Shown here piece by piece: positions 1,953 to 5,872 of a stretch of 64,000 nucleotides of DNA (position 1 is its first letter; each line of letters opens with the position of its first letter). The position numbers were made by a program, and so were the translations under genes. This stretch comes from Saccharothrix sp. S26. Lineage in GTDB: Bacteria > Actinomycetota > Actinomycetes > Mycobacteriales > Pseudonocardiaceae. Location of the stretch: NCBI RefSeq assembly GCF_021390395.1, contig NZ_JAJUWT010000026.1:62001-126000 (forward strand), given 5' to 3'. The notes beneath the pieces are model-generated. The model was not told where the DNA came from. It worked only from the letters and a program-made list of their open reading frames with translations, and ran no database searches.

Positions 1953-2098
1953 CCTGGCAAGAACACGTATTGCAACGAGTTGATGATTGCCGTTCCGCGA
2001 TCGGGTGAGGGTACTTCCCCTGGCCGGCGGTAGGGGCGGACCGTGGGGTCGAAATACCTTCGGTCGCACGAAGTCCCTCGACGCCGCGGAGGCACAAG

Positions 2099-2200
2099 AT
2101 GGTTGTTGAGATCACGACGGTCGAGCAGGCCCAACTCGGCAGCTGCGGCTGCTGCACCGGCTGCACGGGCCCGGGCTGCGGGTGTTGCTCGAGCTGCTAG
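2099..2200 (+). CDS. 33-residue Cys-rich peptide with two CGCCxxC modules
   Basis: A small gene with a textbook ribosome binding site: GGAGG at 2088-2092, six bases before the ATG. Residues 1-15 are a short acidic, Cys-free leader (MVVEITTVEQAQLGS). Residues 16-33 contain eight cysteines arranged as two copies of CGCCxxC (Cys16, 18, 19, 22 and Cys27, 29, 30, 33) joined by TGPG, with no other large residues. A GC-rich hairpin follows 30 bp after the stop. The composition suggests either a minimal metallothionein-like thiol peptide or the precursor of a modified peptide. No maturation enzyme or transporter gene is adjacent, which favours metal or redox binding. I do not recognise the family. 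Confidence 0.6.
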   Translation: MVVEITTVEQAQLGSCGCCTGCTGPGCGCCSSC

Positions 2201-2229: not shown

Positions 2230-2258
2230 GGCCCCGGCCGCCCCAGCGCGCCGGGGCC
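2230..2258 (+). terminator. Hairpin after the Cys-rich peptide gene
   Basis: An 8-bp perfect inverted repeat (GGCCCCGG / CCGGGGCC) with a 13-nt loop, 30 bp downstream of the peptide stop codon. It is consistent with a monocistronic transcript ending here. Confidence 0.5.
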
Positions 2259-3140: not shown

Positions 3141-4685
3141 TCACGGGGGGCAGACGGTGCCGCTGGACGGGACCTTGGCGTTCACCAAGAACTCCTCCGC
3201 CGCCTTCGTCGCGCACGCCGACTGGCCGAGAGCGCCGTGACCGCCCCCCTGCCACCCCACCACGACCCCGGCCGGCAGGACCTGGGCGGCACGTTCGCTG
3301 CCCTCCCGCGGCGTCACGGGGTCGGTGGCCGTGGTCAGGACGAGGATCGGGGGTGCGCCCACCAGCCTCGGCACCTTGACCTGCTGCGGCACGGGGAAGG
3401 GGCCGCAGGACAGCAGCTCGCGGGCGAAGTGGGCGCCGAACAGCGGTTGCTTGGTCCGCCAGTCCGCGGTCAGGCCGGCCACTCGTTCGGGTGGAACGCG
3501 GGTCGTCGTGTCGTTGCAGCCCGTGATGATCCTGGCGTCGATGCGCGGCGGGTCGTCGTCCTGCTCCAGCAGCAACGGCCCGACGAACGCGCTCAGCTTG
3601 GACCCGTCCCCGCCTTCCGCCGCCACGATCGCCTCCGCCAGCGCACCCCACCGCGACCGGTCCGCCAGGCCGGCCAGCACCGCCTGCGTGGCGGTCCCCG
3701 GCGTGAGGTCGAAGTCACCGCCCCGCAACGGCCGGTCGCGCAACGACTCCAGCAACGCCTTGAACCGATCCGTCGCACCGGCACCCAACGGGCACCCGCG
3801 GATCACGCAGTCCTTCTGGAACGCCGAGAACGTCTCCTCCGCCGCCACCGCCCGCGTCTGCGCCACCACCGTCGCGTCCAGCGTCGGGTCCGGCGCGCCG
3901 TCGAACACCATCCGCCCGATCCGGTCCGGGAACCGCGACGCGTACAGCGTCAGCACCCGCGACCCCTCGCCGTAGCCGATCGCGTTCAGGTGCGGCACGT
4001 GCAGCGCCTCGCGCAACTGCTCCAGGTCCGCCGACGCCCGCCACGAGTCCACCGCGGGCAGCCGGTTCTCCATGTCGAGCACGCACTCGCGGCTCGCCAG
4101 CGCGTACGCGTCGACCAGATCCTCGTGCGACTCCGCGCCCGGATCGGCCTCCACGATCCCCTGGCGCGCCGCGTCCGGCACGCACTGCACCGGGTCCGAC
4201 CCACCGGTGCCCCGCCGGTCCACCCCGATCACGGTGAACGCGCTCAGCACCGAGGCGGGCAGGCTCGCCGCCAGCCGCGCCGCCTTCACCGTCCCCGGCT
4301 CGCCACCGGCCTCGCCGACCACCACCAGCGGGCTGCCGCCGGTGCCGACGCGCAGCAGCGACATGCCCAGGCTGCCCCGCCCGGGACGGCTCGGCATGTC
4401 CAGCCGCACGGTGAGCCGCGCGCACTCGTACTCCCACGTGCCCGCCGGGGCCGAGTCACCCATCCGCGCCCGCGTCGCGTCCGTGCACGGCGACCAGGCC
4501 AGCCCCGGGGCCTCGTAGTTCTCCAGCGGCGGGATCTCGCGCGGGCCGGGCGGGACGGCGGCGGTCGAGGGTTCGTCACCGTCACCGTGCACGGCGATCA
4601 CCGGCCGGGTCGACGGACCCGCGCTGCACGCGGCCAGCGCGCTCAGGGCCACCAGCATCCAAGTGGCGTGACGCCGACGCGGCAC
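3141..4685 (-). CDS. TAP-like alpha/beta-hydrolase lipoprotein lacking the nucleophile Ser
   Basis: A 514-residue member of the SlpD/SlpE/TAP aminopeptidase-like secreted hydrolases. The N-terminus has a basic start, a hydrophobic stretch and a lipobox (LSALAAC), so it is probably a lipoprotein. The fold landmarks are present: DRRGTGGSDP, the acid-loop ATDPVTP and the C-terminal GGHGALG histidine with the CA/CPP disulphide region. The nucleophile elbow reads GYGEGS where the family has GYSYG(T/S), so residue 239 is Gly instead of the catalytic Ser (codon GGC at 3971-3969). GTG 4685 is preferred over 4709 because AGGGG lies six bases upstream. It may be a binding or degenerate paralogue. Confidence 0.8.
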   Translation of the reverse strand: MPRRRHATWMLVALSALAACSAGPSTRPVIAVHGDGDEPSTAAVPPGPREIPPLENYEAPGLAWSPCTDATRARMGDSAPAGTWEYECARLTVRLDMPSRPGRGSLGMSLLRVGTGGSPLVVVGEAGGEPGTVKAARLAASLPASVLSAFTVIGVDRRGTGGSDPVQCVPDAARQGIVEADPGAESHEDLVDAYALASRECVLDMENRLPAVDSWRASADLEQLREALHVPHLNAIGYGEGSRVLTLYASRFPDRIGRMVFDGAPDPTLDATVVAQTRAVAAEETFSAFQKDCVIRGCPLGAGATDRFKALLESLRDRPLRGGDFDLTPGTATQAVLAGLADRSRWGALAEAIVAAEGGDGSKLSAFVGPLLLEQDDDPPRIDARIITGCNDTTTRVPPERVAGLTADWRTKQPLFGAHFARELLSCGPFPVPQQVKVPRLVGAPPILVLTTATDPVTPREGSERAAQVLPAGVVVGWQGGGHGALGQSACATKAAEEFLVNAKVPSSGTVCPP

Positions 4686-4793
4686 AGCGGTCCCCTCGCT
4701 CTCTCCCACGGCGTCGGGTTGCCCGTGGGTCCGTGCAGAGCCTCACACAGTCCAGGTGAGACTTCGGTGAGCGGGCTGGGGGAGGATGTCGCC

Positions 4794-5705
4794 ATGGTCA
4801 CGGTGCACGTCGAAGGCCTCCCGGAGCGCAAGCTGCGCGGCTCCGGTCCGCTCACGCTCGCCGCCAGGGCGTTCGGCGCGATCCCGCCGCCCGCCCTGGT
4901 GCTGCTGGGCGTGGTCAGCGTCCAGATCGGCGCGGCGGTGGCCAAGCAGCTGTTCACCCTGGCGGGCGCGACGGGCACGGTCACGCTGCGGCTCGTGCTG
5001 GCCGCCGTGATCCTGCTGCTGGTGTGGCGCCCGTCGCTGCGGCTGGACCGGCGCACGTACGCGGTGATCGTCGGCTACGGCCTGGTGCTCGGCGCGATGA
5101 ACCTGAGCTTCTACCAGGCGATCAAGCACATCCCGCTGGGCGCGGCGGTCACCATCGAGTTCCTGGGGCCGCTGGCGGTGGCCGTGGTGGGGTCGCGGCG
5201 CTGGCTGGACGGGGTGTGGGCGCTGCTCGCGGCGGCCGGCGTGCTGCTGCTGACCAGGGTCGACGGGGGCCTGTCGCTGACGGGCGTGCTGTTCGCGGCG
5301 GGCGCGGGCGCGTGCTGGGCCGGGTACATCCTGCTGACCGCGGCGCTGGGCAACCGCACGTCCGACGGCAAGGGCCTGGCGCTGGCGATGGCGGTGGGCG
5401 CGCTGCTGGCGCTGCCGTTCGGCGTCGCCGAGGCGGGCACGATGCTGCTCGACCCGGTGGTGCTCGTCGCGGGCGCGGCGGTGGCGCTGCTGTCGTCGGT
5501 GATCCCGTACTCGCTGGAGCTGGAGGCGTTGCGCAAGATCCCGCCGCGCGTGTTCGGCATCCTGATGAGCCTGGAGCCCGCGGTGGCGGCGCTGGCCGGG
5601 CTGGTGGTGCTGCACGAGGCGCTGCACCCGGCGCAGTGGCTGGCGGTGTTCTGCGTGGTGCTCGCGTCGGTCGGGGCGACCCGGACCGCGAGACCGGAGG
5701 TGTGA
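4794..5705 (+). CDS. EamA-family (RhtA-like) exporter
   Basis: A 303-residue membrane protein with ten predicted helices in two EamA repeats (roughly residues 30-150 and 165-295). The motifs LSFYQAIKHIPLGAAVTIEFLGPL and SVIPYSLELEALRKIPPRVFGILMSLEPAVAAL are those of the threonine/homoserine exporter RhtA branch. Such proteins export amino acids or metabolites in exchange for protons. Start ATG 4794 has GGAGG eight bases upstream. Its stop overlaps the GTG of the small DUF1801-like remnant. Confidence 0.9.
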   Translation: MVTVHVEGLPERKLRGSGPLTLAARAFGAIPPPALVLLGVVSVQIGAAVAKQLFTLAGATGTVTLRLVLAAVILLLVWRPSLRLDRRTYAVIVGYGLVLGAMNLSFYQAIKHIPLGAAVTIEFLGPLAVAVVGSRRWLDGVWALLAAAGVLLLTRVDGGLSLTGVLFAAGAGACWAGYILLTAALGNRTSDGKGLALAMAVGALLALPFGVAEAGTMLLDPVVLVAGAAVALLSSVIPYSLELEALRKIPPRVFGILMSLEPAVAALAGLVVLHEALHPAQWLAVFCVVLASVGATRTARPEV

Positions 5706-5872
5706 GCGGTCAGCCGCTCGGGTACGTGTCGCTCGCGTCGCAGAAGAACCACACCTCGCTCTACGTGCGGTTCCGGCGGCTCGACGACCTGCCGCTCGAC
5801 GTGATCGGACGTGAAGTCGCACGTCAGGGCGTGGCCGAGTTCGTGGCGAAGGTCCGCGCCGCTCAGGCTTGA
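5702..5872 (+). pseudogene. Truncated, internally deleted DUF1801 remnant
   Basis: The 56-residue frame starts at a GTG overlapping the exporter stop. It reads as two conserved DUF1801 blocks joined directly: PLGYVSLASQKNHTSLYV and then RFRRLDDLPLDVIGREVA followed by a VAEFV segment. In complete DUF1801 proteins these blocks are separated by about 40 residues and preceded by about 50 more. It therefore looks like a remnant with an N-terminal loss and an in-frame internal deletion. It could still be translated by coupling to the upstream gene. The tail overlaps the convergent gene by 10 bp. Confidence 0.55.

Follow-up and report, generated by a model that had tools for sequence, protein, structure and literature searches.

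A 33-codon open reading frame that places eight cysteines in its last 18 residues, MVVEITTVEQAQLGSCGCCTGCTGPGCGCCSSC, raises two questions: is so short a G+C-rich stretch a gene, and if so, what might its product do? The reading frame lies in a 64,000-nucleotide stretch (hereafter the window) of Saccharothrix sp. S26, whose genome comprises 9.08 Mb in 54 contigs. We report that it is best explained as an unannotated single-gene unit with its own promoter, a Shine-Dalgarno site, an ORF of 20-36 codons among relatives, and a hairpin. The original prediction, made from the letters of the window, had listed a GGAGG site, an ATG, 15 Cys-free leader residues, eight cysteines arranged as CGCCxxC-TGPG-CGCCxxC and a hairpin 3' of the stop, and all of these were recovered (Table 1). 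The cysteines occupy peptide residues 16, 18, 19, 22, 27, 29, 30 and 33.

Table 1. Positions of the peptide gene and associated elements in the window
Feature	Position	Strand	Basis
33-codon peptide gene	2099..2200	+	ATG at 2099, stop TAG 2198-2200; genus homologues, codon-position pattern
Shine-Dalgarno GGAGG	2088..2092	+	six bases 5' of the ATG
Eight-Cys core module, 18 residues, CGCCTGCTGPGCGCCSSC	2144..2197	+	alignments, codon-position pattern
Promoter element, local form CTTCCCCTGGCCGGCGGT of the family motif TCACYCGnnnnRGYGGT	2014..2031	+	EM motif search, -10 spacing, genus conservation
-10-like hexamer TACCTT	2055..2060	+	stands at the conserved distance from the promoter element
G+C-rich hairpin 3' of the stop; a probable transcription terminator, though lacking a T run	about 2230..2258	+	own z -2.78

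Conservation of the reading frame

Homologues with identical cysteine spacing were found in 25 of 25 genus genomes (weakest E 4.3e-8), with the reading frame, the stop and a purine-rich Shine-Dalgarno sequence all kept; one contig from Saccharothrix sp. NRRL B-16348 encodes a peptide 97% identical to that of the window. Frameshifts or unconserved cysteines in relatives, which had been named in advance as evidence against a gene, were looked for and not seen in the genus. The other two forward frames contain stops in 17/25 and 9/25 of the genus sequences.

A comparison of codon substitutions among homologues had also been proposed. Of the 19 core codons in the 25 genus sequences, 3 vary at the first position, 3 at the second and 15 at the third, and the 22 distinct DNA forms of the core translate into 8 peptides. 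Third-position variation hence dominates the core and pN/pS is 0.10 there, compared with 0.50 in the leader (computed from the 19 distinct leaders of the 33-residue forms), a codon-level pattern that shows purifying selection on the peptide core. Residues other than cysteine, i.e. those of TGPG and CGCC, are also under selection.

In the window, a single ATG-started ORF of ≤60 residues has eight cysteines in 18 residues, and none occurs in 40 random 64-kb sequences (first-order Markov, with the dinucleotide make-up of the window). Conservation in the genus together with the codon-position pattern is stronger evidence than this random-sequence test; taken with it, they rule out a chance ORF and strongly support the earlier proposal that the peptide is translated and selected rather than a product of chance in GC-rich DNA.

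Gene neighbourhood

Among the first 39 loci that were read, 38 are real and one (L073) is false. A convergent gene for a TAP-like hydrolase starts within about 650 bases downstream in 19 of these 39 loci; the nearest downstream gene identified in the window is also of this kind (3141-4709, minus strand), and the automated pick for the window in this survey was an overlapping frame. Upstream, a DUF6319-cluster gene is present within 2 kb and on the same strand in 10/39 loci. Among the 59 nearest neighbours at 29 relocated loci, each Pfam family was found in five at most, and a consistently adjacent metal transporter or regulator was not seen (cobW matched 2/59). The hairpin after the stop is a regular feature of the 25 genus loci, with a median z of -3.05 and z < -2 in 22 of them. 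In the genus the gene has a standalone layout.

Such a gene could be suspected of being a cysteine-responsive attenuator, where translation of a Cys-rich upstream ORF controls a downstream operon. The high content of Cys codons and the hairpin just 3' of the stop would fit, as would the nearest called downstream gene, which is co-directional at 13 of the 29 relocated loci. However, the convergent hydrolase gene lies close downstream in nearly half of the first 39 loci, residues other than Cys are under selection, and the gene has a Shine-Dalgarno site. Since the nearest downstream gene identified in the window is on the minus strand, there is no operon here for an attenuator to control, and we find this explanation hardly credible.

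Peptide length and sequence variation

All 38 real loci of the first set encode peptides that end in the core plus 0-1 residue, and 12 of these peptides have 21-23 residues; at L081 the start is ambiguous (59 residues chosen automatically, a 21-residue reading preferred). Fifteen of 20 further loci are real, most of them with 20-22 residues counted from the start nearest the core, where several could start a few codons earlier and two (L129 and L133) have longer alternatives. Many relatives thus consist of only 20-23 residues, nearly all core, with 0-5 residues before it. No signal peptide was seen in the short tails when read by eye.

Alignments A2 and A4 show no variation in the C-terminal half, CGCCxxC. 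The first half varies and includes CSCC, CNCC, CGCGCxxC and CCGCxxC; in L130 it reads CxCxCxxC and in L131 CCxCxxC, with the number of cysteines kept in both, and L120 and L133 have seven cysteines only, three of them in the first half. The exact duplication that was originally pointed out is therefore present in the window, but it is partly a local accident. In alignments of 36 and 33 diverse members there is little or no variation in the cysteines, in one Gly and in the CGCCxxC half, and neither His nor any aromatic residue is conserved.

These data bear on the two options that had been offered, "very small metal- or thiol-binding peptide" and "modified-peptide precursor", of which the first is favoured. 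A variable leader followed by a conserved C-terminal core of Cys, Ser, Thr and Gly, as seen in the genus, could suggest a precursor that enzymes modify after ribosomal synthesis (RiPP). The leader is, however, weakly constrained and fast-evolving, and in many relatives it is near-absent, so that leader recognition as in such precursors was not found. The original prediction had noted that no modification enzyme is adjacent; in the relatives, none was seen to recur among the neighbours read at the 39 loci, nor is there one among the 25 most frequent of the 89 Pfam families of the 59 nearest neighbours. We regard a RiPP precursor as very improbable.

Distribution

Saccharothrix is placed within the Pseudonocardiaceae in the NCBI taxonomy, and the family set of 297 genomes is here taken to correspond to this family. 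Profile A1 matched 173 of the 297 genomes and the broader profile A4 matched 206, in both cases in 39 of 46 genera; both counts are lower bounds, and one genome (G010) matches with A1 but not with A4. Some genomes carry second copies of the gene (L029-L031).

In the order, 64 of 397 genomes matched, 58 of these inside the family, and in the class 11 of 394, two of them inside the family. Four of the six non-family matches from the order and eight of the nine from the class, 12 of 15 in all, were inspected and judged to be chance because the reading frame continues past the module; none is a peptide gene ending at the module. The phylum search returned the Saccharothrix sp. S26 genome alone (1/296, E 0.008), with little power given a profile of 18 positions. 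Of 367 pattern stretches in a contig scan just 3 were confirmed, with a filter that is strict for so short a query, and tblastn gave no match in plasmids and phages, where the low-complexity filter probably masks such queries.

Most of the genomes sampled from a large family of antibiotic producers have accordingly retained the gene, yet it matches no NCBIfam or Pfam model, probably because its length is far below the usual limits for genes. At 20-23 residues, the shorter forms would come close to the minimum size of any conserved gene product.

Promoter element

An EM motif search on 53 upstream regions gave TCACYCGnnnnRGYGGTRTC. We carried on 42 of these regions; most of the 11 dropped had a weak or misplaced match, while two of them (L045 and L055) scored as high as some that were retained. 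When offsets of 36-47 were permitted, a TAnnnT hexamer was present at offset 40 or 41 in 32/42 regions. A model, R1, was trained on 25 of the 42 regions, picked for a clear -10.

Run against 25 genomes, R1 matched 13 sites at E <0.002, and a peptide gene follows each of them; 12 of the sites are training sequences and one (from G020) is not. Five more peptide genes were matched at E 0.03-0.33 (G209, G131, G053, G049 and G000), and for the remaining genomes the peptide gene was not among the matches listed. The window's own element is a diverged form that is conserved in the genus; its R1 match is weak (E 0.33) and not the best in its own genome. The 15 further matches that were read revealed no second target, since 14 were without the peptide and one was the G209 peptide gene.

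A test set of 31 loci shared one gene with the training set (L107, identical with L128), leaving 30 non-training loci. At E ≤0.02, 16 of these 30 matched, each just upstream of the peptide core and on the same strand, with no match elsewhere at this threshold; 14 were without any match. The test is not independent, as at least 11 of the 16 matched loci are from genera also represented in training. In the scans made, the element with its fixed spacing is nearly private to the peptide gene.

By its position, the element would suit an activator that contacts RNA polymerase near -35. No known metal-sensor operator was recognised in the promoter. A promoter of such fixed geometry offers a direct route to the identification of a sensor and its signal.

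The module inside other proteins

In a Thermoplasmata archaeon (SUTA01000013.1), CNCCDECTGPGCGCCEDC lies at the N-terminus of an AhpC/TSA peroxiredoxin (L041:9980-10831), which also has a C-terminal tail rich in Lys, Ala and Pro. Within the order of this archaeon the module was detected in 1 of 81 genomes, the source itself, and in 0 of the 80 others.

Seven viral contigs carry the module (L168, L169, L170, L171, L172, L180 and L181). The G+C content of L168, L169, L170, L171, L172 and L181 ranges from 34 to 70%; the exact Cys spacing is found in L169, L170 and L181, and the first half differs in L168, L171 and L172. A further pattern match, L214, was rejected, being without the full module.

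The host proteins on the viral contigs are of several kinds. In L168 the module is part of a Mu-like I protein/head maturation protease, and in L169 (E 0.004) and L172 (E 0.0015) of proteins weakly matching the head protease; the module protein of L171 matched no family. In L170 the protein is large and includes portal-like as well as 2'-5' RNA ligase regions; here one frame of 1513 codons (L170:1260-5801, of which 4002-5798 was scanned) seems to unite portal-like, ParB-like, Cys8-module and 2'-5' RNA ligase regions. The 129-kb IMG/VR contig L180 has a freestanding 42-residue reading with seven cysteines (4373-4501, minus strand) behind a GGAGG site.

Inside other proteins the module could act as an autonomous metal-binding unit. 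Whether its occurrence in phage proteins and in a peroxiredoxin reflects transfer or convergence on one metal-binding solution is a testable question.

The peroxiredoxin also bears on another explanation, that the peptide is a thiol redox buffer or switch. Its cysteine pairs would then alternate between the dithiol and disulfide states, perhaps by exchange with mycothiol or a partner enzyme, and any metal would play an incidental part. Fusion to a peroxiredoxin would suit such a role, as would msrB near 12 and a chlorite-dismutase-family gene near 7 of the 39 loci. However, the fusion occurs in a single genome, and genes for EamA, DNA ligase, LigD polymerase and an AFG1-type ATPase are among the farther neighbours in parts of the 39 loci too, so msrB may be there incidentally. 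Adjacent CC pairs and movable spacing are moreover unusual for a redox active site. We consider a primarily redox function unlikely.

Proposed function

On present sequence data we favour, as reasonably probable, the reading that the product is a minimal metallothionein-like metal-thiolate peptide. The product packs eight thiols into 18 residues, has no conserved His and tolerates shifted spacing in its first half; the gene is standalone with selection on its Cys core, no modification enzyme was seen, and the module occurs inside unrelated proteins, all of which favours this reading. A metal cluster also suits the data better than a fixed disulfide framework would, since L130 and L131 keep the cysteine number while the spacing of the first half shifts.

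The peptide, almost wholly the 18-residue Cys8 module, would stay in the cytosol, where its eight thiolates may hold soft metal ions, Zn(II) or Cu(I), in a small cluster. It might thereby buffer or sequester metal, and secondarily oxidants, like a minimal metallothionein, with the variable N-terminal tail probably serving as a handle or solubility segment only. Binding of an activator at the conserved upstream element would switch expression.

AlphaFold predicted no confident fold for the metal-free peptide (pLDDT 57, pTM 0.17), as might be expected for an apo-metallothionein and equally for any short peptide. The seven-Cys variants L120 and L133, the lack of a consistent metal-gene neighbour, of a recognised metal-sensor operator and of similarity to metallothionein models speak against metal binding, and most of the supporting observations would also suit a redox or protein-binding role. 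If the peptide does bind metal, few genetically encoded metallothionein-like proteins would be smaller, and its size would allow it to be synthesised and solved in full.

More tentatively, and with some doubt, we suggest a single Cys8 metal-thiolate module that exists both as a freestanding protein of 20-23 residues, with a dedicated single-gene promoter across most of the Pseudonocardiaceae, and as a portable insert in an archaeal peroxiredoxin and phage head proteins.

Comparison with known systems

Searches at E up to 10 gave the peptide no match among NCBIfam and Pfam models, metallothionein models included. It also matched no PHROGs family, and with profile A4 no PDB chain was matched, again at E up to 10. 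The core spellings TGPGCGCC, SGPGCGCC, SGPSCGCC and TGPSCGCC were absent from the literature text searched, and the literature search returned no paper title on this peptide. Its small size and very high content of cysteine in CxC, CC and CxxC motifs are those of a metallothionein, apart from the few 7-Cys variants. We do not file it as a member, since it has no sequence similarity to a known family (Pfam, NCBIfam, PDB); at most, it may work like a metallothionein.

The Neurospora-type fungal copper metallothionein resembles the peptide in having about 25 residues, about seven cysteines and no aromatic residues. It differs in being eukaryotic and in its CxC pattern without CC pairs, and our peptide matched no Pfam model. 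The bacterial metallothioneins SmtA, MymT and PflQ2MT are larger than this peptide and several use His ligands, whereas the peptide has no conserved His, a minimum of 20 residues and another Cys pattern. SmtA is described as forming zinc, MymT copper and PflQ2MT Zn3Cys9His metal-thiolate clusters (PMC7387436, PMC10612145). They share small size and richness in cysteine with the peptide, and cluster formation is a feature of the metallothioneins.

Haloferax volcanii has small C(P)XCG zinc-finger proteins, reported to be below 70 residues; the majority bind zinc and several do not (PMC11241148). They resemble the peptide in being very small and prokaryotic with paired Cys motifs; they have C(P)XCG motifs and predicted zinc-finger domains, whereas the peptide has CxCCxxC/CGCCxxC in as few as 20 residues.

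Closer in phylogeny, Canestrari et al. in 2020 (cited in PMC9031893) reportedly described mycobacterial polycysteine leaderless short ORFs that act as operon attenuators. As far as that account goes, these are, like the peptide gene, short, Cys-rich and actinobacterial; they are leaderless and control operons, whereas the peptide gene is preceded by a Shine-Dalgarno site, stands alone in the window and encodes conserved residues besides cysteine.
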